Source: Kribbella sp. VKM Ac-2568 (GTDB taxonomy: Bacteria; Actinomycetota; Actinomycetes; Propionibacteriales; Kribbellaceae). Taken from it: a DNA stretch of 64,000 bases. The stretch is taken from positions 62,001 through 126,000 of the forward strand of contig NZ_SLVF01000005.1 in NCBI RefSeq assembly GCF_004345365.1, read 5' to 3'. Positions 2,607-18,290 of the stretch are shown here, piece by piece (position 1 is the first letter of the stretch; every line of letters starts with the position of its first letter). A program made the position numbers and the translations under genes. The notes under the pieces were generated by a model that saw only the letters and a list, made by a program, of their open reading frames with translations, was not told the origin of the DNA and searched no databases.

Positions 2607-2936
2607 GTGCATGAGCTCGCCATTGTGGAGAGCGTGGTCGATGCGATCGTCGAGAAGGTCGGCGACGGACCGATCGCGGCGGTGCGCCTGGAGATCGGGA
2701 AGTTGTCCGGGGTGGTGGTGGACTCGATCCGGTTCTGCTTCGAGATCGTTGCGAACGGCACGGGTCTGCAGGACGCCCGGCTGGACATCGACGAGCCGTC
2801 TGGGCGGGCGTACTGTCGGGAGTGCGGTGACGAGTTCGACCTGGACGACCCGATCATGCTGTGCGCGTGTGGCAGCGCGGATCTAGACATCCTCAGCGGC
2901 GAGCAGTTGAGGATCATCTCGGTGGAGGTGCACTGA
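2607..2936 (+). CDS. hypA: HypA, nickel/zinc chaperone for hydrogenase maturation
   Basis: HypA delivers Ni(II), with HypB, to the [NiFe]-hydrogenase large subunit. The 109-residue product starts MHELAIVES, with the invariant His2 and Glu3 that bind nickel. A zinc loop follows, using Cys70, Cys73, Cys86 and Cys88 (CRECG...CACG). The last pair is spaced CxC rather than the more usual CxxC. The GTG at 2607 is chosen because nickel binding needs His at position 2; upstream codons would bury it. The length matches the family (about 113). It is separated from hypB by two bases. Confidence 0.95.
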   Translation: MHELAIVESVVDAIVEKVGDGPIAAVRLEIGKLSGVVVDSIRFCFEIVANGTGLQDARLDIDEPSGRAYCRECGDEFDLDDPIMLCACGSADLDILSGEQLRIISVEVH

Positions 2937-2938
2937 CG

Positions 2939-3766
2939 ATGTGCAGCACCTGTGGATGTTCCGGCGAAGGCAGCGGCACCAGGATCAGCCTGGTCACCGA
3001 GCACGACCAACCGCACGACCACGAGCACCCGCACGACGCCGACCACCCGCACGACCACGAGCATGAAGCGGGCGAAGCGCACGGGCACGGGCACGGCCAT
3101 GCGCCGGCGGCGACGGTCGAGGAGACCAGGACGATCCTGCTGGAGCAGGAGATTCTGGCGAAGAACGACGGGCTGGCGGCGGCGAACCGGCATCGGCTGC
3201 AGGAGCACGGGATCACCGCGATCAACCTGATGAGCTCCCCCGGCTCCGGCAAGACCACGCTGCTGGAGAGCACGGTCCGCGCGTACGCCGGAGTCCGCGA
3301 AACCCTCGTGATCGAAGGGGATCAGGAGACCTGGCTCGATGCCCAGCGGATCCGCGCGACCGGGAGCAGGGTGGTGCAGATCAACACCGGCGCGGGCTGT
3401 CACCTCGACGCCCAGATGCTCGCCGGCGGCCTGAAGGAGCTTGCCCCACCGGACAACTCGCTCGTGTTCGTGGAGAACGTCGGCAACCTCGTCTGCCCCG
3501 CACTCTTCGACCTCGGCGAGACCGCGCGCGTGGTGATCATCTCGGTCACCGAAGGCGCCGACAAACCCGCCAAGTACCCCTACATGTTCCGCACCGCCGA
3601 TCTCGTCCTGCTCAACAAGATCGATCTGTTGCCGTATGTGGATTTTGATGTGGAGCTTTGTCTGGGATTGATCCGGCAGTTGCAGCCGGAGGCGCGGATT
3701 CTTCAGGTGTCGGCTACCAAGGGCGATGGGCTGGGTGAGTGGCAGACCTGGCTGGACGCCCTGTGA
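2939..3766 (+). CDS. hypB: HypB, GTPase and nickel store for hydrogenase maturation
   Basis: HypB is a SIMIBI-class GTPase that drives nickel insertion with HypA. The 275-residue product begins MCSTCGC, the N-terminal high-affinity nickel motif. A spacer holding 13 His between residues 22 and 54 can store nickel. The G domain has the P-loop SSPGSGKTT (about 99-107), EGDQETWLDAQRI, NTGAGCHLD (metal-site Cys and His), FVENVGNLVCPA and the NKID guanine motif. The ATG at 2939 puts CSTCGC at the N-terminus, as expected. Being His-rich, the protein may serve both insertion and storage. It is the last gene before a convergent stretch facing hypE. Confidence 0.96.
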   Translation: MCSTCGCSGEGSGTRISLVTEHDQPHDHEHPHDADHPHDHEHEAGEAHGHGHGHAPAATVEETRTILLEQEILAKNDGLAAANRHRLQEHGITAINLMSSPGSGKTTLLESTVRAYAGVRETLVIEGDQETWLDAQRIRATGSRVVQINTGAGCHLDAQMLAGGLKELAPPDNSLVFVENVGNLVCPALFDLGETARVVIISVTEGADKPAKYPYMFRTADLVLLNKIDLLPYVDFDVELCLGLIRQLQPEARILQVSATKGDGLGEWQTWLDAL

Positions 3767-3888: not shown

Positions 3889-4980
3889 TCAGCAGATGCG
3901 GGGTAGTTGTTCTCCGATCGGGGTGTCGACGACGCGGGTGGCACCGAAGGTGGTTTTGGTGACGACCATGCCGGGGTGGGCTTCCACGCATTCGCCGATG
4001 ATCGCGGCGTCGGCGCCAAGCGGATGGGCTCGGATCGCGGCCAGGACCTGGTCGGCATCCTCGGGGGCGACGATCGCGAGGAGCTTGCCCTCGTTCGCGA
4101 CGTAGAGCGGGTCGAGGCCGAGGAAGGCGCAGGCGTTGGCGACGGTCTCGGGGATCGGCAGGTCGCGCTCTACCAGTTCCACCCCGACCCCTGCCGTCTT
4201 GGCGATCTCGTTCAGCGAGGTGGCGACGCCGCCGCGGGTGGGATCCCGCAGTACGTGCAGGTCGAGCGTGGCGTCGAGCATCGCGTCGACCAGGCCGTTC
4301 AGCGGGGCGCAGTCGCTGGTCACCTCGGTACCGAACGAGATGCCTTCGCGCACGCTCATGATCGCGATGCCGTGCACGCCGATCATGCCGCTGACGATCA
4401 CCACGTCACCCGGGACCGCCCGTTGCGGCCGGATGTCCACACCTTCGCGGACCAGCCCGATGCCGGCCGTGTTGATGTAGACGCCGTCGCCGTGACCGGT
4501 GTCGACCACCTTCGTGTCGCCGGTCGCGATGGTGACGCCCGCGCGCTCGGCCGCGGTACCGAGGTCCTTGGCGATCCGGCCGACGACGGACAGTTCGACT
4601 CCTTCCTCGAGGATGAAGCCGCAGGACAGGTACGCCGGCTGCGCACCCGACATGGCCAGGTCGTTCACGGTGCCGTTGACCGCCAGGTCGCCGATGCTGC
4701 CGCCCGGGAAGAACAGCGGCTGCACGACGAACGAGTCGGTCGAGAACGCCAGCCGCGCACCGCCCAACGTGACCACGGCCGAATCCGTCAACCCCTCCAG
4801 CAGCGGATTCGAGAACGCCGGGACGAAGAGGTGCTCGATCAGCTCACCGGAGAGCTGACCACCACCCCCGTGCCCCATCACGATGGTCGGGTAGTCGCGC
4901 AACGGCAAAGGACACGTCCACCCGTCGAAGTTCGGCGGCTGCGCCTCGGAAGTAGGGGGAAGAGCCGGATCAGGAAGCAT
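3889..4980 (-). CDS. hypE: HypE, makes the cyanide ligand precursor for the NiFe site
   Basis: HypE takes a carbamoyl group from HypF onto its C-terminal cysteine and dehydrates it with ATP to a thiocyanate, the CN donor for the Fe(CN)2CO unit. The product ends GEQLPRIC, with the required C-terminal Cys. AIR-synthase-like features are MGHGGGGQLSGELI near the N-terminus, GDLAVNGTVNDLAMSGA, and GDTKVVDTGHGDGVY. Three starts are possible: TTG 4995 (overlaps hypD), GTG 4983 and ATG 4980. I chose ATG 4980 (363 residues) for codon strength; the choice is uncertain. It is the last gene of the hypF-C-D-E operon. Confidence 0.95.
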   Translation of the reverse strand: MLPDPALPPTSEAQPPNFDGWTCPLPLRDYPTIVMGHGGGGQLSGELIEHLFVPAFSNPLLEGLTDSAVVTLGGARLAFSTDSFVVQPLFFPGGSIGDLAVNGTVNDLAMSGAQPAYLSCGFILEEGVELSVVGRIAKDLGTAAERAGVTIATGDTKVVDTGHGDGVYINTAGIGLVREGVDIRPQRAVPGDVVIVSGMIGVHGIAIMSVREGISFGTEVTSDCAPLNGLVDAMLDATLDLHVLRDPTRGGVATSLNEIAKTAGVGVELVERDLPIPETVANACAFLGLDPLYVANEGKLLAIVAPEDADQVLAAIRAHPLGADAAIIGECVEAHPGMVVTKTTFGATRVVDTPIGEQLPRIC

Positions 4981-4987
4981 CACCCGC

Positions 4988-6142
4988 TCAGCCAACAGAA
5001 CTCACCGCCTCGGATGCCTTCGAAGCAGTCTTCGAGGCGGTCTCCGGCGCCGGCGTCTGGAGCCGGCGGTAGAGGTAGTAGGCCGCGCATGCGCCCTCGC
5101 TCGAGACCATGGTGGCGCCCAGCGGGTTGCGTGGCGTGCAGAGCGTGCCGAACGCCTCGCACTCGTGCGGCTTGATCTGCCCCTGCAGCACCTCGCCGCT
5201 GCGGCAGATCGTCGACTCCTCGGTGGCGATGTCCCGCACCTGGAAGCGGTACTCCGCGTCGTACTCCCGATAGCGCGGAGACAACCTCCAGCCGCTCTGC
5301 GGGATCATCCCGATCCCCCGCCAGGCGCGGTCGGTGGTCTCGAAGACGTCGGCGAGCATCTCCTTCGCGGCGGGGTTGCCCTCGTCCCGCACGGCCCGCC
5401 GGTACGCGTTCTCGACGACGTACTCGCCGCGCTCCAACTGGGTCACCGTGCGCAGGATGCCGGCCAGGATGTCCAGCGGTTCGAAGCCGGTCACCACGAT
5501 CGGCACCTTGTACTTCGCGGCCAGCTCCGGGTACTCCGAGATGCCCATCACGCTGCAGACGTGGCCGGCGGCAAGGAACGCCTGCACCCGGCAGTCGGGC
5601 GACTGCATGATCGCCGCGATCGCGGGTGGCACCCGGACGTGCGAAACCAGCAGGCTGAAGTTCGGGAGGCCCAGCCGCTTGGCCTGGTAGACCGTCATCG
5701 CGTTCGGCGGCGCGGTGGTCTCGAAGCCGATGCCGAAGAAGACCACCTGCTTGTCCGGGTTGTCCTTGGCGATCTTGAGCGCGTCCAGCGGTGAGTAGAC
5801 CACCCGGACGTCGCCACCCTCGCTCTTGATCCGGAACAGGTCACGCCCGCTGCCCGGCACCCGCAGCATGTCGCCGAACGAACAGAAGATCACCCCGGGC
5901 TGCGAGGCGATCTCCAGCGCCTTGTCGATGATCTCCAGCGGCGTGACGCAGACCGGGCAGCCCGGCCCGTGGATCATCTCGACGCCGTCGGGCAGCAACT
6001 GGTCGATGCCATGCCGCACGATCGTGTGGGTCTGCCCGCCGCAGACCTCCATCATCGCCCACGGCTTCGTCACCGTGGCGTGGATCTGGTCGACCAGCTT
6101 CTTGGCCAGATCGGGATCGCTGAACTCGGCCAGATACTTCAT
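4988..6142 (-). CDS. hypD: HypD, iron-sulfur scaffold assembling Fe(CN)2CO
   Basis: HypD, with HypC, holds the iron while CN and CO ligands are attached. The 384-residue product has the family signatures CGGQTH (Cys34), [10 protein letters not shown] (Cys62, Cys65) and [12 protein letters not shown]-terminal cluster region has Cys spaced C-x14-C-x6-C-x16-C, matching a [4Fe-4S] site. A 20-residue Ala/Ser/Glu-rich tail ([19 protein letters not shown]) follows the conserved end and looks disordered. The ATG at 6142 follows AGAGGAGACAC, an excellent ribosome-binding site, and overlaps the hypC stop as ATGA, implying coupled translation. Confidence 0.96.
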
Positions 6143-6450
6143 CGCAGTGTCTCCTCTGTCCCCGGCGGCCGCCGTTCCCCGGCCTGCCGTGCGGCGATCC
6201 CCCAGTGGTCGCCGAACTCCTCCTCCAGTGCGCCCAACTGCCGGTAGAGCTCCAGCGACTGCATCGCCGACTCCTCGTCCAGCCGCTGCAACGCGAACCC
6301 GACGTGCACGATCGTGTACTCGCCCACCTGCAGGTCGGGCAGATAGGCCAGGCAGACGTCCTTGATCACGCCGCCGAAGTCGACCTTGCCCATCCGGGTG
6401 TCGTCCTCGTCCCGGATCTCCACCACTCGTCCTGGTACCGCTAGACACAT
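6139..6450 (-). CDS. hypC: HypC, chaperone carrying the iron unit to the large subunit
   Basis: HypC binds HypD and then the hydrogenase large-subunit precursor, using the cysteine exposed after removal of Met1. The product starts [12 protein letters not shown], with the essential Cys2, followed by the OB-fold core ending [18 protein letters not shown]. At 103 residues it is longer than most HypC (70-90). The extra C-terminal part ([18 protein letters not shown] and beyond) is charged. GGGAG lies upstream of the ATG at 6450. Its start lies inside the end of hypF (10-bp overlap) and its stop overlaps hypD. A shorter HypC paralogue sits in the structural operon at 16574. Confidence 0.95.
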
Positions 6451-8831
6451 GCTGATTGCTCCCTTCGTGCCGGCACGCGGGCCGCGACGGCCAGCTGCCC
6501 GAGTGCGATACCGGCATCGGTCGGCGGCACCTTCGCATGCCGCAGAACGGTGAAACCGGCCTTGGACAACGCCCGACTGCTTGCTGCGAGCAACAATCGG
6601 TTGACGAACACCCCACCCGACAGGGCGACCGTGGACAACCCGCGATCGGCTCTGACCCGCTCGGCGATCCGGACCATCGCCCGCGCGACGGCCTGGTGGA
6701 ACCGCAGTCCGACCACCCCGGCGCCGACCCCGGCGAGGACGTCTTGCACCACCTCGGCCAGGACGGGCGTGGGATCGATCAGGCCGGGGAAGCCCGCGAC
6801 GGGCGCGCTCAGGCCGAACTCGTAGGCGCGGTCGACCGGACATCCGACGGCCAGCCCTTCCAACTCGATCGCGGCCTGCGCTTCGTAGCCGACGCGGTGA
6901 CAGACGCCCGCCAGCGAGGACACCGCGTCGAACAAACGACCCATGCTCGAGGTCGGCGCGCAGGCGAGGTTCCGCTCCAGCTGGATCCGGAGCAGCCTCA
7001 ACTCCTCGTCGCCGCAGGCCTGTACCGACGGCAGCCGCGGGTCCCAAGGCAGCCCGGCCGCCATGAGGTGCGACAGGGCCATCCGGCAGGGATTCCGGAC
7101 ACCCGCATCCCCACCGGGCAACGGGACATAGCTCAGGTGTGCGTACCGCTCGAAGCCGTCGTACCCGGCGAGCAGCACCTCACCACCCCAGACCGCGCCG
7201 TCGTCGCCGTACCCGGTCCCGTCGAAGGCGAACCCGATCACCGGCTCCGCCCCGTCGTACCCGTGCTCCGCCAGCACGGACGCGAGGTGCGCATGATGAT
7301 GCTGTACGCCGATCACCGGCCGCCCATCCGCGTGCAGCTCTGCCCACTGCCGGGACCGGTACGCCGGGTGCTTGTCCGTCACGAGTACCTCGGGCCGGAC
7401 GCCGGTCAGTTCCTCCAGATGACGCTCGGCCTTCTCGAAGGCGGCCAGCGTGGCGAGGTCATCCATGTCGCCGACGTGCGCGGAGAGCCAGGCATAGCGA
7501 CCGTCACCAAGACAGAAGGTGTTCTTCAGGTCTCCACCGACAGCGAGCGCCGGACGGACGGGAACAGGCAGCGCGACCGGGAACGGCGCATACCCCCGGG
7601 ACCGCCGGATCGGCAGTTCCGTGCCGGCGACGATCCGGACCACAGAGTCGTCACAGGGAACGTGAATCGCCCGGTCGTGTCCCAGCCACCCGTCGGCCAG
7701 CGGTGCCAACCGGATGGCCGCATCCTCGTCGGAGGTGACGATCGGCTCACCCGACACATTGCCACTCGTCATCACCAGCACCGACAAACCCTCGAAGAGC
7801 AACCGGTGCAACGGGGTGTACGGCAACATCACCCCAAGATCCGGGTTGCCCGGGGCGACTGCGGCAGCAACGGCCGCATCGGGAAGCCTTCTGAGCAACA
7901 CGATCGGCCGCCGATGCCCGGTCAGCAGCGCGGCCTCGACCTCGTCCACCTCCGTCATCCGCCGGGCGGTGTCGAGATCGGCGGCCATGACCGCGAACGG
8001 CTTGTCGCCTCGATCCTTCCGCTTGCGCAGCGTCGTCACAGCGGCCTCATCGGTCGCGTCGCACACCAGATGGAACCCACCGAGACCCTTGACCGCCACG
8101 ATCCCGCCGGCCCGCAACATCCCCAGCGCCCCCGCCAACGCTTCCTCGCCGTACTGCGGGTCGGTGGCGGGCGTGGTCAGGCACAGACGCGGGCCGCAGT
8201 TGGGACAGGCGATCGGCTGGGCGTGGAACCGGCGGTCAGCGGGGTCGCCGTACTCGCGGGCGCAGTCGGGACACAGCGGGAAGGCAGCCATCGTGGTCGC
8301 CGGGCGGTCGTAGGGCAGGCCGGTGATGATGGTGAAGCGCGGCCCGCAGTTCGTACAGGTGATGAACGGATGCCGGTGGCGACGGTCGGCCGGATCGGCG
8401 AACTCGGTCAGACAGTCGTTGCAGGTGGCAACATCCGGGGAGACCAGGGTGCGCCCCGCCCCGGCCGCGGAGTCGAGGATGACGAAGTCCGTGCCACCCC
8501 GTGCGGGCACCACCTCGCACTCCACCGTCTCCACCACGGCCAGCGGCGGCGCGTCGGCCGCGATCCTGCGACCGAAAGCCTCGACCGCATCCGCCGGACC
8601 CTCCACCTCGGCGATCACCCCGGCCGCGGTGTTCGCGACCTCGCCGGACAGTCCGAGCTCCCGCGCCAGGGCATAGACGAACGGCCGGAAACCGACGCCC
8701 TGGACGACGCCGGACACGACGACAGATGCGCGGATGCGTGAAGCCGGACCGGTCGTGGCCCCCACCACCTGCTGATGGATTTGTCGGACTTCCGGGGTGA
8801 CGAGACCGAGCGCGCTGACGAATTCGGCCAT
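6441..8831 (-). CDS. hypF: HypF, carbamoyltransferase for cyanide ligand synthesis
   Basis: HypF uses carbamoyl phosphate and ATP to load the HypE cysteine. Domains in order: an acylphosphatase domain with [15 protein letters not shown] (about residues 40-55); two zinc fingers, CNDC...CTNCGPRF and CPDC...CPNCGPRL (about 130-205); a YrdC-like domain with [12 protein letters not shown]; and a Kae1-like domain with [21 protein letters not shown] and [11 protein letters not shown]. The length (up to 796) is typical. ATG 8831 has no clear ribosome-binding site, and about 32 residues precede the conserved start. In-frame GTG codons near 8768 could be the true start. It heads hypF-hypC-hypD-hypE. 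Confidence 0.95.
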
Positions 8832-9674: not shown

Positions 9675-10751
9675 ATGTCGATGACTCTGGAACCAGATCA
9701 GGCACAGGAGACGGCCGACGAAGGTGTCGTCCACATTCTCTGGATGAACGGCGGGCTGAGCTGCGACGGGGACTCCGTCGCGCTCACCGCGGCCACCCAG
9801 CCCAGCATCGAGGAGATCGTGCTGGGGGCGCTGCCGGGACTGCCGAGGGTCGCGGTGCACTGGCCGCTGATCGACTTCGAGTGCGGCCCGGAGACGGGCG
9901 CGGACAACTTCATCGAGTGGTGGCACAAGGCCGACCGCGGTGAGCTCGAACCCTTCGTCCTGGTGGTGGAGGGCTCCATTCCGAACGAGGCGATCAAGTC
10001 CGACGGATACTGGGCCGGCTTCGGCAACAACCCGGCCACCGGACAGCCGATGAAGACCTCGGAGTGGCTCGACCGGCTGGCCCCGAAGGCGACCGCGGTA
10101 GTTGCCGTCGGCACCTGTGCGGCGTACGGCGGGATCCACGCGATGGCAGGGAATCCAACCGGTGCGATGGGGGTGCCGGACTACCTCGGCTGGGGCTGGA
10201 AGTCGAAGGCCGGACTACCGATCGTCTGCGTGCCAGGTTGCCCCATTCATCCCGACAACCTGTCCGAGACGCTCGTGTACCTGCTCTACCAGGTGGCCGG
10301 CCAGGCGCCGATGATCCCGCTGGACGCCGAACTGCGACCGCAATGGCTGTTCGGCCGGACCGTGCACGAGGGCTGCGACCGCGCCGGGTACTACGAGCAG
10401 GGCGACTTCGCCAAGGAGTACGGCTCGCCGAAGTGCCTGGTGAAACTGGGCTGCTGGGGACCGGTGGTGAACTGCAACGTGCCCAAGCGGGGCTGGATCA
10501 ACGGCGTCGGCGGCTGCCCGAACGTGGGCGGTATCTGCATCGCCTGCACGATGCCCGGGTTCCCGGACAAGTTCATGCCGTTCATGGACGAACCACCGGG
10601 CAGCAAGGTCTCCGTCGCCGCCAGCACGGCCTACGGCACCGTGATCCGGCGGCTGCGCAAGATCACCCAGAACACGGCGAACAAAGAGCCCCAATGGCGG
10701 CACAAGGGATCGACCCTCACGACCGGCTACGAGAAGGTAGTCCAGCCATGA
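9675..10751 (+). CDS. hhyS: Group 1h-type [NiFe]-hydrogenase small subunit
   Basis: This subunit carries three Fe-S clusters moving electrons from the NiFe site. The 358-residue product has no Tat leader, so the enzyme is cytosolic or peripherally bound. The proximal cluster motif reads Cys30-x2-Asp33 (GLSCDGD) where common group 1 enzymes have CxxC; Cys148 (GTCAAYGG) and Cys189 (PGCPIHPDN) complete a 3Cys/1Asp set, the hallmark of actinobacterial high-affinity enzymes. His231, Cys234, Cys254 and Cys260 fit the distal cluster, and Cys267, Cys281, Cys288 and Cys291 the medial. The ATG at 9675 follows GAGGAGG. Its stop overlaps hhyL as ATGA. Confidence 0.95.
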   Translation: MSMTLEPDQAQETADEGVVHILWMNGGLSCDGDSVALTAATQPSIEEIVLGALPGLPRVAVHWPLIDFECGPETGADNFIEWWHKADRGELEPFVLVVEGSIPNEAIKSDGYWAGFGNNPATGQPMKTSEWLDRLAPKATAVVAVGTCAAYGGIHAMAGNPTGAMGVPDYLGWGWKSKAGLPIVCVPGCPIHPDNLSETLVYLLYQVAGQAPMIPLDAELRPQWLFGRTVHEGCDRAGYYEQGDFAKEYGSPKCLVKLGCWGPVVNCNVPKRGWINGVGGCPNVGGICIACTMPGFPDKFMPFMDEPPGSKVSVAASTAYGTVIRRLRKITQNTANKEPQWRHKGSTLTTGYEKVVQP

Positions 10752-12553
10752 CCACCACCGAACCGAAGGTCGGCTCCGCGCTGGACGCCGACAAGAGCTC
10801 CGACGTCGTGGAGATGGCCTGGGACCCGATCACCCGGATCGTCGGCAGCCTGGGTATCTACGCCAAGGTGAACTTCAAGTCCAAGACGGTCGAGGAGTGC
10901 CACAGCACCTCGTCGATCTTCCGCGGCTACAGCATCTTCATGAAGGGCAAGGACCCGCGCGACGCGCACTTCATCACCAGCCGGATCTGCGGCATCTGCG
11001 GCGACAACCACGCCACCTGCTCGGTCTACGCGCAGAACATGGCGTACGGCGTCGCGCCGCCGCACCTGGGCGAGTGGATCGTCAACCTGGGCGAGGCCGC
11101 GGAGTACATGTTCGACCACAACATCTTCCAGGAGAACCTGGTCGGGGTGGACTACTGCGAGCGGATGGTCCGGGAGACCAACCCGGGCGTGCTCGAACTG
11201 GCGAACCGAACCGAGGCGCCGCACGCCGGCGACCACGGGTACCGCACGATCGGCGACATCATGCGGTCGCTGAACCCGCTGGAGGGCGACTTCTACCGCG
11301 AGGCGCTGCACGTCAGCCGCTACACCCGCGAGATGTTCTGCCTGATGGAGGGCCGGCACGTCCACCCGTCCACGCTGTACCCCGGCGGTGTCGGCACGGT
11401 CGCGACGATCCAGCTGTTCACCGACTACCTGACCCGGCTGATGCGCTACGTCGAGTTCATGAAGAAGGTCGTACCGTTGCACGACGACCTGTTCGACTTC
11501 TTCTACGAGGCGCTGCCCGGCTACGAGCACGTCGGCGAGCGGCGCATCCTGCTCGGCTGCTGGGGCAGTCTGAACGACCCGGCGATCTGCGACTTCAAGT
11601 ACGAGAACATGGATGCCTGGGGCAAGCGGATGTTCGTCACCCCGGGCGTGGTGGTGGACGGCCGGCTCGTCACCAACAACCTGGTCGACATCAACCTCGG
11701 CCTGCGGATCCTGCTCGGCAGCTCGTTCTACGACGACTGGGCCGACGGCAGCCACGAGAAGTTCGTCGACCGGGACCCGCTGGGCAACCCCGTCGACGTC
11801 CGGCACCCGTGGAACCAGCACACCCTGCCGAAGCCGCAGAAGCGCGACTTCTCGAACGCCTACAGCTGGACGATGTCGCCGCGCTGGTTCGACGGCACCG
11901 ACCACCTGGCGCTCGACACCGGCGGCGGCCCGATCGCGCGCCTCTGGTCGACCGCGCTTTCCGGACTGGTCAACACCACCTACGTCCAGGCCACCGGCAA
12001 CAGCGTGAAGATCCAGCTCCCCCGGACCGCGCTGAAGCCGGCCACGGAGTACGAGTGGAAGATCCCGCGGTGGAGCAACGCGATCGAGCGGAACCGGGCC
12101 CGGACCTACTTCCAGGCGTACGCGGCCGGGCTGGCGCTGCACTTCTGCGAGAAGGCGATGGCCGAGGTCAGGGCCGGCCGGACCGAGACCTGGACCCCGT
12201 TCAAGGTCCCGGACAACGCGATCTCCTGCGGTTTCACCGAGGCCGTGCGGGGCGTGCTGTCGCACCACATGGTGATCCGCGACGGCAAGATCGCGAACTA
12301 CCACCCGTACCCACCGACCCCGTGGAACGGGAGTGTGCGCGACTCCTACGGAACCCCCGGGCCGTACGAGGACGCCGTACAGAACACGCCGATCTTCGAG
12401 GAGAACCCACCCGACCGGTTCAAGGGCATCGACATCATGCGCGCGGTGCGCAGCTTCGATCCCTGCCTGCCGTGCGGTGTGCACATGTTCGTCGGGAACG
12501 GGAGAGAGAAGACCCATCTGCACTCGCCCACGCTCGCGGTCAAGCCGTACTGA
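10748..12553 (+). CDS. hhyL: Group 1h-type [NiFe]-hydrogenase large subunit precursor
   Basis: This is the catalytic subunit that splits H2. The 601-residue precursor has the two NiFe ligand motifs: RICGICGDNH (Cys81, Cys84) and DPCLPCGVH (Cys573, Cys576, His579). Beyond His579 there is a 22-residue tail, MFVGNGREKTHLHSPTLAVK plus PY. It should be removed after nickel insertion by the protease at 15982. The length and motifs agree with group 1h enzymes that scavenge trace atmospheric H2 during starvation (known for Streptomyces, Mycobacterium and relatives). It overlaps hhyS by ATGA and is followed one base later by the NifU-like gene. Confidence 0.96.
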   Translation: MTTTEPKVGSALDADKSSDVVEMAWDPITRIVGSLGIYAKVNFKSKTVEECHSTSSIFRGYSIFMKGKDPRDAHFITSRICGICGDNHATCSVYAQNMAYGVAPPHLGEWIVNLGEAAEYMFDHNIFQENLVGVDYCERMVRETNPGVLELANRTEAPHAGDHGYRTIGDIMRSLNPLEGDFYREALHVSRYTREMFCLMEGRHVHPSTLYPGGVGTVATIQLFTDYLTRLMRYVEFMKKVVPLHDDLFDFFYEALPGYEHVGERRILLGCWGSLNDPAICDFKYENMDAWGKRMFVTPGVVVDGRLVTNNLVDINLGLRILLGSSFYDDWADGSHEKFVDRDPLGNPVDVRHPWNQHTLPKPQKRDFSNAYSWTMSPRWFDGTDHLALDTGGGPIARLWSTALSGLVNTTYVQATGNSVKIQLPRTALKPATEYEWKIPRWSNAIERNRARTYFQAYAAGLALHFCEKAMAEVRAGRTETWTPFKVPDNAISCGFTEAVRGVLSHHMVIRDGKIANYHPYPPTPWNGSVRDSYGTPGPYEDAVQNTPIFEENPPDRFKGIDIMRAVRSFDPCLPCGVHMFVGNGREKTHLHSPTLAVKPY

Positions 12554-12554
12554 C

Positions 12555-13403
12555 ATGGACCGTCGCGACGCGCAAGCGCTGAGCGAGCGGATCGACGTGC
12601 TGCTGGACGAGGTCCAGCGGCGCGCCGAGCCGGACGTGACCGAGAAGGTCGAGGAGCTGGTTCGCGCCGTGTTGTCCCTGCACGGCGCGGGCCTCGAACA
12701 ACTGCTGGCCCGGCTGGACGAACCCCAGGTCCGGGGCCTGCTGGAGGACGATCTCGTCACCGGGATGCTGTTGCTGCACGATCTCCACCCGGACGACGTC
12801 GCGACCCGGATCCAGGGCGCCCTGGACAGCGTCCGGCCGTACCTCGGCTCCCATGCCGGCGGGATCGACTATCTGGGCATCGATGACGACGGAGTCGTGC
12901 ACCTACGGTTGCAGGGCAGCTGCGACGGTTGCCCCGGCTCGACGGCAACGGTCCGGCTCACGGTGGAGAACGCCGTGCTGGACGCCGCCCCCGAGGCCGT
13001 CGCCGTCGACGTGGAGGGAATGGTCGCAGCCAAGAAGCAGACCTTGCTGACGATCGAGCCGTTCCGGCCCAGTCAGGAGACCGAGGGCTGGTACCGGCTC
13101 GACCTGGTCACGGCGCCCGGCCAGGTCCAGAAGCTCGTGGTCGCAGACCTCGAACTCCTGGTCGCGAACCTCGGTGGCACCTACTTCGCCTACCGGAACA
13201 GCTGCCCCGCCTGCTCGTCCGTCCTGCACCACGGTGAACTCACTGGAGACGAGCTCACCTGCCCGCGCTGCACCGCCGTGTACGACGTCCGCCTGGCCGG
13301 GCGTGCGCTTGCACCTGTCGGGTCCGAGGCACTCGAGGCCCTGCCGCTGCTGCCCGACGCCACCGGCTGGAAGGTCGCAGTACCGGGGAGGCAGCCGGCG
13401 TGA
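12555..13403 (+). CDS. NifU-like/Rieske-like fusion with all-cysteine metal site
   Basis: The 282-residue protein joins two cluster-related domains. Residues about 84-160 are a NifU C-terminal scaffold domain with CDGCP (Cys123, Cys126). Residues about 175-270 look like a Rieske ferredoxin, but where Rieske proteins have CxH and CxxH this one has CPAC (Cys217, Cys220) and CPRC (Cys236, Cys239). The site should therefore be all-Cys: a plant-type [2Fe-2S], a rubredoxin-like iron or zinc. The first 80 residues are helical and charged. Its place directly after the subunit genes suggests it builds clusters for, or takes electrons from, the hydrogenase. The ATG at 12555 is chosen by position after the hhyL stop; the stop overlaps the next gene as GTGA. 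Confidence 0.85.
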   Translation: MDRRDAQALSERIDVLLDEVQRRAEPDVTEKVEELVRAVLSLHGAGLEQLLARLDEPQVRGLLEDDLVTGMLLLHDLHPDDVATRIQGALDSVRPYLGSHAGGIDYLGIDDDGVVHLRLQGSCDGCPGSTATVRLTVENAVLDAAPEAVAVDVEGMVAAKKQTLLTIEPFRPSQETEGWYRLDLVTAPGQVQKLVVADLELLVANLGGTYFAYRNSCPACSSVLHHGELTGDELTCPRCTAVYDVRLAGRALAPVGSEALEALPLLPDATGWKVAVPGRQPA

Positions 13404-14068
13404 GGCCCTCATCGACGCTGAGATCGCTCGCGCGGGACAAACCACCGCCACCTGTGGACCCGGTGGCGGTGCTTCGCGGCTTCACGGGTGGGGTGCGGGA
13501 ACAACTCGCGCCGGGTGAGCAGTGCGAGATGTGCGCGGTGCCGATCGGTCCGGAGCACTCGCACATCGCGGATGTACCGGATCACCGGCTGCTGTGCACC
13601 TGCCGGCCGTGCTACCTGCTCTTCAACGCCGAGGCAGCCTCGCGCGGGCACTACCGCGCCGTACCGGAGAACTACCGGTTCAACCAGGACTTCTCGATGT
13701 CGTCGGCGCAGTGGGAAGCGCTGGGCATTCCGGTGAACCTGGCCTTCCTCTTCCACCAGACCGATCAGGACAGGAACGTCGCGTTCTACCCGAGTCCGGG
13801 CGGCGCGACCGAGTCGTTGCTCGACCTGGCCAGCTGGGACGAGGTGGTCGCGGCGGATCCCCTGCTGGGCGAGCTGATCCCGGACGTGGAGGCGGTGCTG
13901 CTGCGCCGGCTCGACGACGGCTTCGAGTGCTACCTGGTCCCGATCGACTCCTGCTACGAACTGGTCGGCATCGTCCGGCAGTACTGGGAGGGGTTCGCGG
14001 GAGGCGAGGAGGTCTGGGGACGGATCGACGGGTTCTTCGCCCGGGTGAAGGAGCGCTGCCGTGGTTGA
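13400..14068 (+). CDS. DUF5947-type hydrogenase-operon protein with Cys/His cluster
   Basis: I match this 222-residue protein to DUF5947 from memory; the function is not known. A Pro-rich N-terminus leads into a candidate metal-binding region: CEMC (Cys42, Cys45), GPEHSHIAD (two His), DH, and LLCTCRPC (Cys66, Cys68, Cys71). The rest is an alpha/beta region with FHQTDQDRNVAFYPSPGGATE and LVPIDSCYELVGIVR. No signal peptide or membrane helix is seen. Eight possible Cys/His ligands in 30 residues fit a zinc or Fe-S site. It starts with GTG overlapping the previous stop and its 3' end overlaps the next gene, so it belongs to the tightly coupled hydrogenase operon. Confidence 0.8.
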   Translation: MRPSSTLRSLARDKPPPPVDPVAVLRGFTGGVREQLAPGEQCEMCAVPIGPEHSHIADVPDHRLLCTCRPCYLLFNAEAASRGHYRAVPENYRFNQDFSMSSAQWEALGIPVNLAFLFHQTDQDRNVAFYPSPGGATESLLDLASWDEVVAADPLLGELIPDVEAVLLRRLDDGFECYLVPIDSCYELVGIVRQYWEGFAGGEEVWGRIDGFFARVKERCRG

Positions 14069-14693
14069 CCTCGAGTTCACCTGCGTCGGCGCGGACGCCG
14101 ACCGGTACGCCGCGACGCCGACCGTGCTGCTGCACCTGAGGATCACCGAGACGACCGGTACGCCGGTGCATGCGCTCGCGTTGCGCTGCCAGATCAGGAT
14201 CGAGCCGATCAAGCGCCGCTACGACGACGAAGAGGCTGATGGTCTGGCGGACCTGTTCGGCGATCGTGCCCGCTGGGGCGAGACGCTGAAGCCGCTGCAA
14301 CTGGCCTTCGTCACGCAGATGGTGCCGGGGTTCACCGGGTCGACCGAGGTGGATCTCAATCTGCCGTGCAGCTACGACTTCGACGTCGCCGCGCACAAGT
14401 ATCTCTACGCAGTCCGCGAGGGAGGGGTGCCGCTGTTGCTGCTGTTCAACGGCACGATCTTCACCGGCCGGGCCGGCACCTTGTCTGTGACACCGGTCGC
14501 CTGGCAGAAGGAGGCGTCGTACGCCCTCCCCGTACCGGTCTGGCGCGAGGCGATGGACCAGCACTTCCCCGGGGCCGCCTGGCTGAAGTTGCGGCGGGAC
14601 ACCTTCGACAAGCTCTACAGCTACCGGGCCCGGGAGGCGCTGCCCGGCTGGGACGACGCGATCGAACGGCTGCTGAAGGAGAGCCAGGAATGA
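14061..14693 (+). CDS. DUF6084-type hydrogenase-operon protein
   Basis: A 210-residue protein I assign to DUF6084 from memory. It is rich in beta strands (VDLEFTCVGADADRY, LLHLRITETTGTPVHALALR, STEVDLNLPCSYDFDV) and ends in a helical segment with WLKLRRDTFDKLYSYRARE. No catalytic motif, signal peptide or metal-binding cluster is evident. The GTG at 14061 overlaps the end of the DUF5947 gene by eight bases and the stop overlaps the next ATG (ATGA). Conserved co-occurrence with group 1h hydrogenase genes is the only clue to role: assembly, subunit pairing or electron acceptor. Confidence 0.8.
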   Translation: MVDLEFTCVGADADRYAATPTVLLHLRITETTGTPVHALALRCQIRIEPIKRRYDDEEADGLADLFGDRARWGETLKPLQLAFVTQMVPGFTGSTEVDLNLPCSYDFDVAAHKYLYAVREGGVPLLLLFNGTIFTGRAGTLSVTPVAWQKEASYALPVPVWREAMDQHFPGAAWLKLRRDTFDKLYSYRAREALPGWDDAIERLLKESQE

Positions 14694-15985
14694 CCCCGTC
14701 CTTCGAGAGTGTCCAGCAGATCGCCGACGTGTTGCTGTTCGAGGGGTACGTGCTGTACCCGTACCGCGCGTCCGACGGGAAGAACCGGGTGCGCTGGCAG
14801 TTCGGCGTCCTGATGCCGCCCGCCTACGGTGCGGTCGACCCGTCCGAGCGGACCTGGTCGCAGACGGACTGCCTGCTCGACGGGGACGAGGCCGTCCTGA
14901 CCGTGCGGATCCGCTTCTTGCAGGCACAACGCCGTACCGTGCTGAACGCCGAGCGGGTCGAGGTGGAGTCCCTGCAGACCGAGGACGCTTCGTACGTGCC
15001 GTGGGACGAGGCCGTCGAGCAGCACGTCGACGTCACCGTGGACCTGCGCGAACTGCCCTGCGAGAGGGCGTTCTCCGTTGCCGGAGGCGCCGAGCTGGAA
15101 GCGGTCGGCGATGCGGGTTTCCTGCAACGGACTCGCCTGCCACTCGAAGGAGTGCTTGCCCTTAGCAAAGAAGAGTTGCCTGGACCCTACGGAGTGAACC
15201 GGCTGCGGTTGCGGTTGGAGAATCGCAGTACAGGCGAGGATTCCGAGCGAGTCGGGGCGCTGCGACAAGCACTGATCGCGCATCACCTGCTGGTCGCCGC
15301 TGATGGTTGCCGCTTCATCTCGTTGCTCGAACCCCCTGAATGGGCGACCGGCTACGTGGCCGGGTGCGAGAACCTCGGCATCTTCCCGGTGCTGGCCGGC
15401 GATCTGTTGCTGTCGTCGCCGATCATCCTCTACGACCACCCGCAGATCGCGCCGGAGAGCCACGGCGACCTGTTCGACGCCACCGAGATCGACGAGATCC
15501 TCAGCCTGCGCACCATGACGCTGACCGAGGAGGAGAAGCGTGAGGTCCGCGGTACCGACCCACGCGCGGCGGCAATGCTCGACCGGGTGGACTCGATGCC
15601 GCAGGAGATCCTGGATCGCCTGCACGGCACGGTCCGCTACCTGCGCAAGGTCACCGAGCCGGAGCCCGCGCCCGCCGACGCGCCCTGGTGGGACCCCGGC
15701 AACGACACCTCGGTGTCCCCCGAGACCGACACCGTGATGGTCGGTGGCGTCGCCGTCGGCAACGGCGTCCGCGTCCGGCTGCGTCCCGGCGTACGGCGGG
15801 CCGACGCGCAGGACATGTTCCTCGCGGACCGGGTGGGCACGGTGGTCGCGGTGCTGTCGGACGTGGACGGCGTGACGCATCTCGCCGTCGCGCTGGATGG
15901 TGAGGAGGGTGAGGTGCAACGCGCGCATGGTCGCTACCTGTACTTCAGCCCGGACGAGATCGAGCCCCTGGTGAGTGCCGGATGA
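14690..15985 (+). CDS. Uncharacterised 431-residue hydrogenase-operon protein with SH3-like C-terminus
   Basis: No named family is recognised. The N-terminal 230 residues start with VADVLLFEGY-like sequence (QIADVLLFEGYVLYPYR) and contain KNRVRWQFGVLMPP. The middle has SPIILYDHPQIAPESHGDLFDATEIDEIL and TDPRAAAMLDRVDSMP. The last 80 residues (VAVGNGVRVRLRPG, GRYLYFSPDEIEPL) look like a small SH3/KOW-type beta barrel. It is soluble, with few Cys. The ATG at 14690 overlaps the preceding stop and the TGA at 15985 overlaps the protease start. Its place just before the large-subunit protease suggests a late maturation or quality-control step; this is inference only. Confidence 0.8.
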   Translation: MTPSFESVQQIADVLLFEGYVLYPYRASDGKNRVRWQFGVLMPPAYGAVDPSERTWSQTDCLLDGDEAVLTVRIRFLQAQRRTVLNAERVEVESLQTEDASYVPWDEAVEQHVDVTVDLRELPCERAFSVAGGAELEAVGDAGFLQRTRLPLEGVLALSKEELPGPYGVNRLRLRLENRSTGEDSERVGALRQALIAHHLLVAADGCRFISLLEPPEWATGYVAGCENLGIFPVLAGDLLLSSPIILYDHPQIAPESHGDLFDATEIDEILSLRTMTLTEEEKREVRGTDPRAAAMLDRVDSMPQEILDRLHGTVRYLRKVTEPEPAPADAPWWDPGNDTSVSPETDTVMVGGVAVGNGVRVRLRPGVRRADAQDMFLADRVGTVVAVLSDVDGVTHLAVALDGEEGEVQRAHGRYLYFSPDEIEPLVSAG

Positions 15986-16467
15986 GCCCGCGGATCCTGG
16001 TCGCCGGCCTGGGCAACATGTTCTGCACCGACGACGCCTTCGGGGTGTCGGTCGTCGCCGAGCTCGCCCAGCAAAGCTGGCCGGAAGGGGTCGAGGTGCA
16101 GGACTTCGGCATCCGCGGCATCCACCTGGCCTACCAACTGCTCGAACCGTACGACCTCGTCGTACTGATCGACGCGGTGCACCGCGAAGGCCCGGCGGGG
16201 ACGGTCTACGTGGTCGAGGCCGAGCCGGACCCGGAGCCCGGGCCGGAGGTGAGCATGGACGCGCACGACCTGGGCCCCGACGCCGTGCTCTCGCTTGTAC
16301 CCCGACTTGGTGGGACCTTGGGAAGAGTGGTGGTGGTCGGCTGCGAGCCAGGCGACATAGGCACCGGCATCGGGCTCACCCCGGCCGTCCAGGACGCGGT
16401 GGAGACCGCGGCACAACTGGTGACCGACCTGGTCATCGGCGTGAAAGTCGGAGAAGGGACATCGTGA
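15982..16467 (+). CDS. Hydrogenase maturation protease (HyaD/HupD/HycI family)
   Basis: This endopeptidase removes the C-terminal tail of the large subunit after nickel insertion, locking the active site. The 161-residue product has the family start ILVAGLGNMFCTDDAFGV with the metal-sensing acid at Asp17/Asp18, a second acid in VLIDAVH (Asp64) and the His in MDAHDLGPD (His95). Together these are the nickel-binding trio of HybD. GCEPGDIGTGIGLTP is the usual C-terminal signature. The expected substrate is hhyL, cleaved after His579. Its start overlaps the previous stop (ATGA) and its stop overlaps the microprotein start (ATGA). Confidence 0.95.
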   Translation: MSPRILVAGLGNMFCTDDAFGVSVVAELAQQSWPEGVEVQDFGIRGIHLAYQLLEPYDLVVLIDAVHREGPAGTVYVVEAEPDPEPGPEVSMDAHDLGPDAVLSLVPRLGGTLGRVVVVGCEPGDIGTGIGLTPAVQDAVETAAQLVTDLVIGVKVGEGTS

Positions 16468-16568
16468 TGCGCTGGGTCATCCTCGCAATCGTGCTGCTGT
16501 TCACATTCGGGCTTCTCTACTTCGTGCTGCCCGATGCCCGGCGGTACTTCCGGCTGAGGGACATGTAG
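16467..16568 (+). CDS. 33-residue single-helix membrane microprotein (DUF6893-like)
   Basis: The ATG at 16467 overlaps the protease stop and encodes MRWVILAIVLLFTFGLLYFV, then a short basic tail with DARRYFRLRDM. It has one transmembrane helix and a positively charged end; the 'RRYxRxRxM' ending resembles what I recall of DUF6893 small actinobacterial proteins. Position in the operon suggests it tethers the soluble hydrogenase, or a partner, to the membrane and so to the quinone pool. This is inference, but plausible because the hydrogenase subunits have no anchor. The size could lead to its omission from automated annotation. Confidence 0.75.
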   Translation: MRWVILAIVLLFTFGLLYFVLPDARRYFRLRDM

Positions 16569-16573
16569 CGGCG

Positions 16574-16789
16574 ATGTGCCTCGGCATCCCGGGCCGGATC
16601 GTCAGCACCACCCCTGGCCTCGACCTCGGACAGGTCGAGGTCGCGGGTGTGGTGCGCGAGATCAACCTGGCGCTGCTGGACGGTCCGTTCGTCCCGGGTG
16701 AGTACATCTTGATCCACAGCGGCTTCGCACTCGAGCGGATGACGCCCGAGCGAGCCGCCGACGCTTTGGCGTTCTTCGGCGGCGAGTGA
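16574..16789 (+). CDS. Second HypC/HupF-type chaperone
   Basis: A 71-residue protein starting MCLGIPGRIV with the essential Cys2, followed by VREINLALLDG, GEYILIHSGFALERMTPE: a complete minimal HypC. It lacks the charged C-terminal extension of the HypC at 6139-6450. Two HypC-type proteins with one set of structural genes suggest a split of work, such as one chaperone holding HypD and one holding the large subunit, as for HypC/HybG or HypC/HupF elsewhere. The start lies six bases after the microprotein stop and the stop overlaps the next gene (GTGA). Confidence 0.92.
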   Translation: MCLGIPGRIVSTTPGLDLGQVEVAGVVREINLALLDGPFVPGEYILIHSGFALERMTPERAADALAFFGGE

Positions 16790-17475
16790 TGGCAGTCGCG
16801 ACGACGTCCGGGCCGATCCTGTTCGTCCGGTACGCGCTGGCGCCCAACCTGCTCGGGTACTGCGGCCCCGCCGACGGCAGCGCGTTGCTGGCCTACGGAG
16901 CGGGTGCTGCGGTGGACGACGGACTGCGCGAACGCGCCCGGCAGTTCGAGGGCGCCTGGCCGTACCTGGAGATGATCGCCGAGACGGCGGGGATCAGAGA
17001 TCCGCTGGACTACCGGATCGTGGAGGCCTACTGGCTCGGCAACGCCCTGCTGGGCGACGTGGGCGCGCGGTTGAAGGCCGGTGGGATGCCACACCACAGC
17101 TACCAGGTGTTCTGCTGCTACCCGTGGGCCGACCTGCTCGGCAACGAACGCGCCGGGCAGCAGGCGTTGCACGTCCTCGACCAGTGCCGGATCCGCTGGG
17201 GCCGGGTGATCGCCGACGTGGGCACCCATGTCCTCGTCGAGTCCCGGGCCCTCACCTGGGACGGCCGCGCTCTGGCTCTCGGCCCGCTCCGCAAGGAGAC
17301 GGTCATCCGCGGCACTGACGGCATCGACCTGCTCGGCCCTCTGTCCCCCGGCGACTGGGTCACCCTGCACTGGCAATGGATCTGCGACCGCGTCGACCTC
17401 CGCCGAGTCACCGCGCTGCGCAAATACTCGGCGTACCACCTGACGCTGACCAACAACCGCCTCGCACTAGTCTGA
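16786..17475 (+). CDS. DUF6390-type hydrogenase-operon protein
   Basis: A 229-residue protein I match to DUF6390 from memory. Conserved-looking segments are ILFVRYALAPNLLGYCGP near the N-terminus, VEAYWLGNALLG, MPHHSYQVFCCYPWADLL and a long C-terminal beta-rich part ending HLTLTNNRLALV. Cys/His residues (YCG, HH, CC) might bind metal, but no known motif is complete. The start is GTG 16786 overlapping the HypC stop, or ATG 16789. It is the last gene of the ten-gene hydrogenase operon; the next gene begins 41 bases later with its own ribosome-binding site. Role unknown. Confidence 0.75.
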   Translation: MMAVATTSGPILFVRYALAPNLLGYCGPADGSALLAYGAGAAVDDGLRERARQFEGAWPYLEMIAETAGIRDPLDYRIVEAYWLGNALLGDVGARLKAGGMPHHSYQVFCCYPWADLLGNERAGQQALHVLDQCRIRWGRVIADVGTHVLVESRALTWDGRALALGPLRKETVIRGTDGIDLLGPLSPGDWVTLHWQWICDRVDLRRVTALRKYSAYHLTLTNNRLALV

Positions 17476-17516: not shown

Positions 17517-18290
17517 ATGGATCTGCACCTGGCCGGCAAGACCGCACTCGTCACCGGCGCCAGCAAGGGCATCGGCCTCGCGATCACCCGGGAGTTGCTC
17601 GCCGAGGGAGTGAAGGTCGTCGCCGGCGCGCGCTCCGTCGACGGCCAACTGGGCTCGCTGCCGGTCGAGACCGTCGCCGTCGACCTCAGTACGCCGGAGG
17701 GTCCCGCGGACTTCGTCGCCGAGGCGCTGGCCCGGACGGGCACGTTCGACATCCTGGTCAACAACGTCGGTGCGGTGCATCCGCGACCGGGCGGGTTCGT
17801 CTCGGTGACCGACGAGGACTGGCTGGCGACCTGGACGCTCGACTTCCTGTCGGCCGTGCGGACCACCCGAGCCGCGCTGCCGCAACTGCTGGAGCGGACC
17901 GGGACGATCGTGACCGTCTGCTCGGTCAACGCGACCCTGCCCGACCCGCTGGTGATCGACTACAGCGCCGCCAAGGCCGCCGCCGCCAACTTCTTCAAGG
18001 CGTTGTCGAAGGAGGTCGGTCCGCAAGGCGTCCGGGTGAACACGGTCAGCCCAGGGCCGGTCTCCACGGATCTCTGGCTCGGCAAGGACGGCGTGGCCGA
18101 GACGGTCGCCGGTGCCGTCGGAGGCGAACCGGACGCCGTCGCCGCTCAGGCCGCGGCGGGTTCCGTGACCGGGCGCTTCACGACCCCGGAGGAGGTGGCA
18201 GCGCTGGTCGTCTTCCTGGCCGGCGACCGGGCCGGCAATCTGACCGGCGAGGACATCGTGATCGACGGCGGCCTCACGCCCACACTCTGA
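17517..18290 (+). CDS. Short-chain dehydrogenase/reductase
   Basis: A 257-residue classical SDR. It has the NAD(P) motif TGASKGIG (about 13-20), NNVG (about 81-84), a catalytic Ser in CSVNAT, and Tyr/Lys in YSAAKAAAANF; PGPVSTDLW follows. Substrate cannot be told; the basic residue after the glycine motif (SKGIG) and the ARSVDG segment lean towards NADP. The ATG at 17517 follows TGGAGTTCGCG. It lies downstream of the hydrogenase operon but is probably separate. There is no sign it serves hydrogen metabolism. Confidence 0.9.
   Translation: MDLHLAGKTALVTGASKGIGLAITRELLAEGVKVVAGARSVDGQLGSLPVETVAVDLSTPEGPADFVAEALARTGTFDILVNNVGAVHPRPGGFVSVTDEDWLATWTLDFLSAVRTTRAALPQLLERTGTIVTVCSVNATLPDPLVIDYSAAKAAAANFFKALSKEVGPQGVRVNTVSPGPVSTDLWLGKDGVAETVAGAVGGEPDAVAAQAAAGSVTGRFTTPEEVAALVVFLAGDRAGNLTGEDIVIDGGLTPTL

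Follow-up and report, generated by a model that had tools for sequence, protein, structure and literature searches.

Microbial uptake is estimated to remove about half of all H2 in the atmosphere, and group 1h hydrogenases (Hhy) are counted among the enzymes held responsible (PMC7174314). In Cupriavidus necator the subunit genes hofK (PHG064) and hofG (PHG065) stand with open reading frames of unknown function, PHG066-069, and a protease gene, PHG070 (PMC4377017); in Thermomicrobium roseum the conserved hypothetical genes behind hhyLS have been named hhaABC (PMC6776052); and a 2026 paper puts the hypothetical proteins of a conserved cluster at four in one place and at six elsewhere in the text (PMC13332983). 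In Mycobacterium smegmatis, deleting hhyE or its homologue hucE lowers H2 oxidation and the double deletion abolishes it; the passages on HhyE describe a C-terminal region with two CxxC, favour a role in electron transfer and leave maturation open (PMC6883350). How Hhy is seated at the membrane and how its electrons travel onward are named as a gap in passages of three papers (PMC6883350, PMC13332983, PMC7174314), one of which states that no anchoring membrane subunit is known for Hhy (PMC13332983). Here we compare with these systems a locus of Kribbella sp. VKM Ac-2568, read in a window of 64,000 nucleotides (the whole stretch of DNA that was analysed), in which eight accessory genes at 12555-17475 follow the subunit genes of a group 1h hydrogenase. 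Our reading, to which we give a probability of roughly 0.45, is that of a core Hhy operon with a local tail, in which a membrane microprotein of family DUF6893 would tether the complex and the other accessory proteins would serve as scaffold, in assembly or as a relay.

The operon reads as follows.

9675-10751, + strand: hhyS, small subunit (358 residues); Pfam NiFe_hyd_SSU_C and Oxidored_q6.
10748-12553, + strand: hhyL, group 1h large subunit (601 residues); Pfam NiFeSe_Hases, with the L1 and L2 motifs.
12555-13403, + strand: HhyE, a NifU domain and a C-terminal domain with two CPxC (282 residues); Pfam NifU 5.6e-18.
13400-14068, + strand: DUF5947 protein (222 residues); Pfam 1.9e-70.
14061-14693, + strand: DUF6084 protein (210 residues); Pfam 1.8e-88.
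14690-15985, + strand: P431 (431 residues), no Pfam family; a predicted beta-rich N-terminal domain and a predicted C-terminal SH3-like barrel.
15982-16467, + strand: hydrogenase maturation protease (161 residues); Pfam HycI 5.3e-17, TIGR00072 above cut-off.
16467-16568, + strand: DUF6893 single-helix membrane microprotein (33 residues), tail PDARRYFRLRDM; Pfam PF21833.
16574-16789, + strand: hypC, the second copy in the window (71 residues); Pfam HupF_HypC.
16789-17475, + strand: DUF6390 protein (228 residues); Pfam 1.6e-75.

The eight frames at 12555-17475 all lie on the + strand and each has a start and a stop codon. Coordinates, codons and Pfam matches bear out what had been claimed of them in an earlier reading of the sequence (the original prediction), namely that they overlap or nearly touch behind the subunit genes: a gap of 1 nt separates hhyL from HhyE and one of 5 nt the microprotein from hypC, while the overlaps are 4 nt for HhyE/DUF5947, 8 nt for DUF5947/DUF6084, 4 nt for both DUF6084/P431 and P431/protease, and 1 nt for both protease/microprotein and hypC/DUF6390. 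The L1 motif TSRICGICGDNH and the L2 motif SFDPCLPCGVH, which a passage of PMC5364354 gives as those of group 1h, are both present in the window DNA. The best Protein Data Bank (PDB) match of the hhyL product is C. necator HofG (5aa5, 1068 bits); among the matches listed, its nearest relatives are in a Streptomyces-labelled genome (95%) and in Kribbella species (92-94%).

To compare gene content we took the best 80 HhyL loci listed from GTDB genomes (79-95% HhyL identity; mostly Streptomycetaceae and not independent) and kept the 75 with at least 4.6 kb downstream of hhyL, five being dropped as truncated (L023, L026, L030, L048 and L056). The two subunits, HhyE, DUF5947, DUF6084 and P431 are each present in 75/75, the protease in 73 and the microprotein in 68. 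hypC is adjacent (on the + strand, starting within 900 nt of the last protease or P431 frame) in 17/75 and DUF6390 is found in 7/75. The conserved core is thus hhyS-hhyL-hhyE-DUF5947-DUF6084-P431-protease-microprotein, and hypC with DUF6390 is a local tail. This gene content is far beyond chance, and the plasmids of C. necator, Methylocystis, Mycobacterium and Kitasatospora carry the same core in the same order. Gene presence, order and linkage, like the constraint reported below, are direct observations of the present analysis.

Some loci depart from this order. In L012, L019 and L020, P431 and the protease lie upstream on the opposite strand, the protease some 8-10 kb off; in L015, whose contig ends, this placement applies to P431 but not to the protease. 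In a Streptomyces type (L005, L151 and L152) P431 precedes hhyS and DUF6084 is missing. This type has neither DUF6084 nor a clear microprotein. Behind DUF5947 its three loci share a small protein, soluble and conserved, of some 60-70 residues (MGRIRVG...MKIMPNI; L005 14880-15130, L151 9700-10080 on the - strand, L152 10950-11200), which may be a replacement part.

Co-occurrence with other hydrogenases, a check proposed with the original prediction, was run in 246 Actinomycetota genomes, the same set being searched with every query; Pseudomonadota are represented through plasmids only, and Fisher tests on these counts ignore shared ancestry. Twenty-four genomes were classed as group 1h: 23 in which HhyL reaches at least 63% identity across 509 or more residues (one of them, G087, cut by a contig end) and G028, where it is split over two contigs. 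Three genomes with shorter HhyL pieces (G107, G184 and G227) were excluded; that of G184 is a shortened hhyL running directly into hypE-like sequence (L164 11743-13540), a decayed locus or a misassembly. Ten genomes had group 2a only, with a large subunit at 39-44% identity; the set includes two partial matches (G163 and G221) and one genome, G130, with an additional 72-residue piece at 58% identity.

DUF5947 is found in 23/24 group 1h genomes, 0/10 group 2a-only genomes and 1/222 outside the 24; the corresponding counts are 22/24, 0/10 and 2/222 for DUF6084, and 23/24, 0/10 and 2/222 for P431. The exceptions outside the 24 are G189 and G216, where the block stands at a contig end. The group 1h genomes without DUF6084 are G128 and G171. 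G042 lacks DUF5947, the roughly 310 nt between its HhyE and DUF6084 being too short for it, and its contig stops at DUF6084, so that P431 could lie beyond. Among 72,556 plasmid records HhyL, P431 and DUF5947 match the same 12, six of which are pairs from the same strain, and DUF6084 matches 10 of them; a scan of IMG/VR gave no relatives of DUF6084. Within the 246-genome sample, DUF5947, DUF6084 and P431 go with group 1h. The module had been described as locked to group 1h: this holds for these three families (22-23/24 vs 0/10), and the protease is present in 73/75 relative loci, but it does not hold for HypC (17/75) or DUF6390 (7/75).

DUF6390 occurs in 9/24 group 1h genomes, in 1/10 with group 2a only and in 7/222 outside the 24 (one of these, G150, counted from a fragment only), and so fails as a group 1h-specific gene. 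In G086, G100 and G140 it lies on a different contig from the group 1h operon, and it matches two plasmid records, one of them without HhyL. At L153, L154, L156, L158, L159 and L170 it either adjoins hypD or lies no more than about 1 kb from hypC; for this reason we take it as a general hydrogenase-associated gene. That it could be a group 1h electron-transfer protein is ruled out, since it is also close to the HypC/HypD of other hydrogenases.

The microprotein scores 25.2 bits against Pfam DUF6893 (PF21833, cut-off 24.6); nine of ten tested homologues match this family and the Methylocystis copy fails. A single-sequence search with default filters had pointed to a restriction to Kribbella, which was ruled out by an unfiltered short-frame search with the 33 residues of the window: same-sized one-helix peptides were found directly 3' of the protease at many loci. 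A hidden Markov model (HMM) gave a copy in the 68 relative loci mentioned above and in four of five plasmid loci, including those of C. necator (L001 10754-10855) and Methylocystis. The microprotein is missing from the gene tables of its four plasmid loci, tables whose own description calls them incomplete, and the name DUF6893 is absent from the open-access literature searched, a scope that leaves out most subscription papers and preprints. The original prediction had rightly noted a membrane microprotein but did not single it out; of all parts of the module, this one is the least described. What appears new is that this microprotein is widespread beside the module, C. necator and Methylocystis included, and is a candidate for the Hhy membrane anchor: a 33-residue peptide skipped by gene tables offers one small candidate for the membrane question.

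The 68 aligned microproteins are 32-43 residues long and have a conserved basic tail that closes with PDxxRYxxxxxM. The HMM was trained on a pattern requiring D, R/K, Y and a final M, and the apparent invariance of the alignment is thus partly due to selection; in a pattern-free search, 59 of the 60 listed matches end in M. In all 68 the last 12 residues hold more K/R (mean 4.2) than the first six (mean 1.4). By the positive-inside rule the basic flank of a membrane helix lies on the cytoplasmic side, and this K/R excess would therefore place the tail in the cytoplasm. The ratio of nonsynonymous to synonymous differences (pN/pS), from 158 close and non-independent pairs among 31 sequences with high pS, is 0.28 in the last 13 codons vs 0.77 before them, which indicates that the tail is constrained as protein and the helix mainly in its hydrophobicity.

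In the 246 genomes we counted the microprotein at E <= 2.1e-4 with a match reaching model position 34, a cut set after viewing the matches; the next match below it is at E 0.0016 and no weaker listed match reaches position 34. It is found in 21 genomes: 17/24 of group 1h, 0/10 with group 2a only and 4/222 outside the 24 (G150, G189, G195 and G216). In G189 and G216 module genes stand at contig ends. At most 32 first-look candidates were scored per genome, and at most 150 in a follow-up scan, so genome-wide absences are soft. Direct inspection of the loci gave no clear microprotein in G182, G128, G171, G100, G103 and G124; in L152 there is a candidate that is longer and scores very weakly, at 8.0 bits. 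Among the relative loci it was not found in L008, L009, L015, L016, L034, L055 and L081, and of the seven genomes behind them only that of L015 has a copy elsewhere. L015 and L185 are two hhy loci of one Amycolatopsis genome (G248), one with and one without the microprotein.

Several arrangements around the microprotein are recorded here as such. The mycobacterium-like locus L159 (2265-3417, G150) retains only part of hhyS together with the microprotein, the protease and hyp genes, and has lost everything from hhyL to P431. L171 (8779-9401, G195) reads protease-microprotein-hypF-hypC-hypD-hypE, with no hhyL match in the genome. In L178 (7326-8359, G140) the protease has a microprotein on either side, the two copies being different. 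Extra copies are present in G205, G092 and G189; those at L173 2152-2250 (G189) and L176 7044-7142 (G092) are of a second type, with tail PDFQRYxQLRDM, away from the module, and the L173 contig also has an Nramp-type transporter. Among ten frames near the orphan or G195 microproteins Pfam matched only AbiEi/MTES_1575 and Nramp; the remaining frames are maybe not genes.

From its hydrophobicity, charge bias, constraint and linkage, DUF6893 would span the membrane once, with its basic tail in the cytoplasm, and tether an otherwise soluble complex near the quinone pool. Around it, the protease and the Hyp proteins would mature HhyL, as established for these families; HhyE and DUF5947 would supply metal sites, for enzyme assembly or for electrical connection; and DUF6084 and P431 would be scaffold subunits, P431 using the predicted SH3-like domain at its C-terminus for docking. 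More specifically we propose, as a tentative but quite possible reading of the sequences, that DUF6893 is the missing group 1h anchor: an N-out/C-in helix whose tail, with its C-terminal Met, may dock Hhy via P431, DUF6084 or HhyL by the quinone pool. Such docking would help to give the high apparent H2 affinity, and lineages without DUF6893 would use a replacement. The Hhy enzyme of strain SolV is associated with the membrane even though its subunits lack a transmembrane helix, and its affinity is lower once it has been isolated, according to the passages concerned (PMC7174314).

Four points weigh against an anchor. C. necator carries the microprotein, yet its hydrogenase has been described as a cytoplasmic enzyme with low affinity (PMC4377017, PMC7174314). 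The objection is a serious one but does not decide the matter: purification of the C. necator enzyme followed homologous expression (PMC7174314), and Huc, the group 2a enzyme, is likewise mainly soluble when overexpressed (PMC10017518). The microprotein was not found in 7/75 relatives and in 7/24 group 1h genomes. It is mostly 3' of the protease and, in genomes without hhyL (G195, G150), is still accompanied by protease or hyp genes. SolV, which is verrucomicrobial, has a membrane-associated group 1h enzyme and, as described in PMC7174314, no homologues of the hypothetical operon genes, the microprotein itself not having been looked for there.

The third of these points leads to the main rival, in which the microprotein is a maturation part that keeps the protease and the Hyp proteins on the membrane or aids the processing of HhyL, the other accessory proteins being transient assembly chaperones. 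The gene directly upstream is the protease in 69 of 82 microprotein copies, most copies overlapping the upstream gene by 4 nt or following it after a short gap; the microprotein adjoins protease and hyp genes in G195; a second copy stands beside hypC-hypD-hypE in G205; and G150 keeps microprotein and protease after the loss of hhyL. Yet in L012, L019 and L020, where the protease has moved some 8-10 kb away, the microprotein stays with the structural genes, directly 3' of DUF6084, and G195 and G150 may be merely decaying loci. We also know of no need for a membrane helper among the soluble Hyp proteases of other hydrogenases. A maturation role is allowed for HhyE in PMC6883350, at least in the passages on that protein. 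On balance we consider this explanation unlikely, though it is the one to be weighed most seriously beside an anchor.

The extra copies bear on a further possibility, that the microprotein is a small membrane protein of general use, unrelated to hydrogenase and only incidentally placed in the operon. Those of G189 (contigs 92 and 155) and G092 do stand apart from the module, one on a contig that also has Nramp; but, in the scan of at most 32 first-look candidates per genome, 20 of the 21 microprotein genomes carry either the hydrogenase module or some remnant of the structural genes, and the remaining one, G195, has protease and hyp genes adjoining the microprotein. A general protein thus seems very improbable, and we retain DUF6893 as a putative tether of Hhy.

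The electron path concerns first HhyE. The original prediction counted four genes without known function, of which it named five, and placed among them the first gene, which it called Rieske-like. This gene is HhyE, for which an H2 oxidation phenotype is on record in M. smegmatis (PMC6883350, in the part on the deletions). Its C-terminal ligand motif, of the form CPxC...CPxC (CPAC...CPRC in the window), rules out a Rieske centre, which has C-x-H...C-x2-H; in the same alignment the Rieske pattern is found only in the HucE-like L156 and L170 (CAH...CPWH), and Pfam Rieske gives HhyE 16.8 bits, under the cut-off of 20.3. The window HhyE has CxxC at 123, 217 and 236, i.e. that of the NifU domain and the two of the C-terminal region. 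HhyE could be read in 83 of 85 loci (not in L026 and L038): 16 have three CxxC, 11 one or two, 49 only a CxC, and seven neither, C. necator and Methylocystis among them. It would be too strong to say that Streptomyces HhyE is without any metal site, CxC being kept in 49/83. Judged by these alignments, the NifU CxxC of HhyE appears to have been changed to CxC or lost among relatives; this observation, in contrast to the invariant Cys/His of DUF5947 described next, looks new.

DUF5947 differs from HhyE in this respect. Its motif CxxC...HxH...CxCxxC is present in 74/74 loci read, five Cys and two His being invariant in 73 aligned sequences; if any one accessory protein has a universal metal site, DUF5947 would be its carrier. 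AlphaFold models were made for DUF5947 and P431. In that of DUF5947 (predicted local distance difference test, pLDDT, 87.6) the Cys/His region at 40-80 is nearest to zinc domains, weakly (Z 2.4-3.0 over about 40 residues); iron-sulfur chemistry is thus unsupported. Structural matches of residues 91-222 reach Z 2.8 or less, and the profile has no match in the PDB better than E 0.33. The zinc-like region of the model would weakly disfavour electron transfer by DUF5947 and, to that extent, the relay part of our reading.

The same data bear on another explanation, that HhyE is the obligate electron acceptor of Hhy, passing electrons to menaquinone via iron-sulfur sites, and DUF5947 a structural zinc protein. 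Deletion phenotypes and conserved motifs speak for the first part, as proposed for M. smegmatis (PMC6883350, in the part seen), and the weak zinc match of DUF5947 for the second. But only CxC is left in 49 of the 83 HhyE and neither motif in seven, and C-terminally shortened forms are mentioned in the same paper (PMC6883350). We find this explanation improbable. The cysteines of HhyE are lost or changed in most relatives read, vs the invariant site of DUF5947, and the search for the electron path of Hhy is redirected accordingly.

P431 gave no credible match when the window proteins were searched against Pfam, and the profiles of P431, DUF5947 and DUF6084 gave nothing better than E 0.11 against the PDB. 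In the model of P431 (mean pLDDT 84.1) residues 18-246 resemble 148-423 of DrmA (Z 10.7-10.8, about 180 residues, 4.4-4.8 A), and the N-terminal domain matches DrmA in Foldseek at E 5.5e-6. A defence protein is ruled out by the hydrogenase neighbours, and PADLOC gives DrmA only at E 0.018. The modelled C-terminal barrel is close to PetP (Z 8.1, 79 residues, 3.8 A) and to PsaE (1jb0_E; Z 6.3, 60 residues, 2.9 A). It is a common small barrel, also seen in ribosomal L21e (Z 7.4) and nitrile hydratase beta (Z 6.2), so no shared function with PetP or PsaE follows. In L099, L100, L102 and L105 the barrel is read from a separate frame. From the model we infer, and only infer, that P431 may be a scaffold with a docking barrel. 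DUF6084 is not its homologue (hhalign probability 0.2%) and its sequence has no PDB match at E <= 5.

Further maturation genes lie upstream of the operon, and one gene follows it:

2607-3763: hypA and hypB, upstream of the hydrogenase operon.
3892-8759, - strand: hypE, hypD, hypC and hypF, also upstream of the operon; the first hypC copy of the window is at 6178-6450.
17517-18290, + strand: a short-chain dehydrogenase-like gene (judged by eye), about 40 bases past the operon.

Placed beside the known systems, most of the module is already described in print: HhyE, PHG066-070, hhaABC and the cluster count of 2026 cover it, as far as the passages concerned go. The original prediction, which saw here the most likely under-described system, is overtaken on that point; its overall interpretation is partly supported. 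The Hhy operon of M. smegmatis (hhyS, hhyL, hhyE = MSMEG_2718, MSMEG_2717) is like the window in that HhyE and a PHG067 homologue come after the subunits of the group 1h enzyme (PMC6883350, passages on the operon). As reported there, it ends at hhyE (MSMEG_2722-2718), whereas the window adds hypC and DUF6390, and the microprotein is unmentioned in the part of the published text concerned. A plasmid locus of M. intracellulare keeps the order of the window, but with the microprotein between P431 and the protease.

The actinobacterial-type hydrogenase cluster of C. necator H16 (hofKG, PHG066-070) has the same subunits-NifU-DUF5947-DUF6084-P431-protease order together with the microprotein. By our own mapping, from pHG1 gene order and the published numbering, DUF5947 is PHG067 and DUF5947-DUF6084-P431 match PHG067-069. 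It differs by a short HhyE without CxxC or CxC, by hypF in place of hypC-DUF6390, and by an enzyme that is described as cytoplasmic (PMC4377017).

Resemblances to more distant systems are partial. DISARM DrmA shares 13% identity with P431, which has no helicase parts and stands in a hydrogenase context. PetP and PsaE, SH3-like subunits of photosynthetic complexes, are alike to the C-terminal domain of P431 in predicted fold. Huc (group 2a) oxidises atmospheric H2 and must reach menaquinone, as Hhy does, and its HucE is a homologue of HhyE, according to the passages on the two enzymes (PMC6883350). Unlike Hhy, Huc uses a HucM stalk (PMC10017518), and DUF5947, DUF6084, P431 and the microprotein are each found in 0/10 of the group 2a-only genomes.

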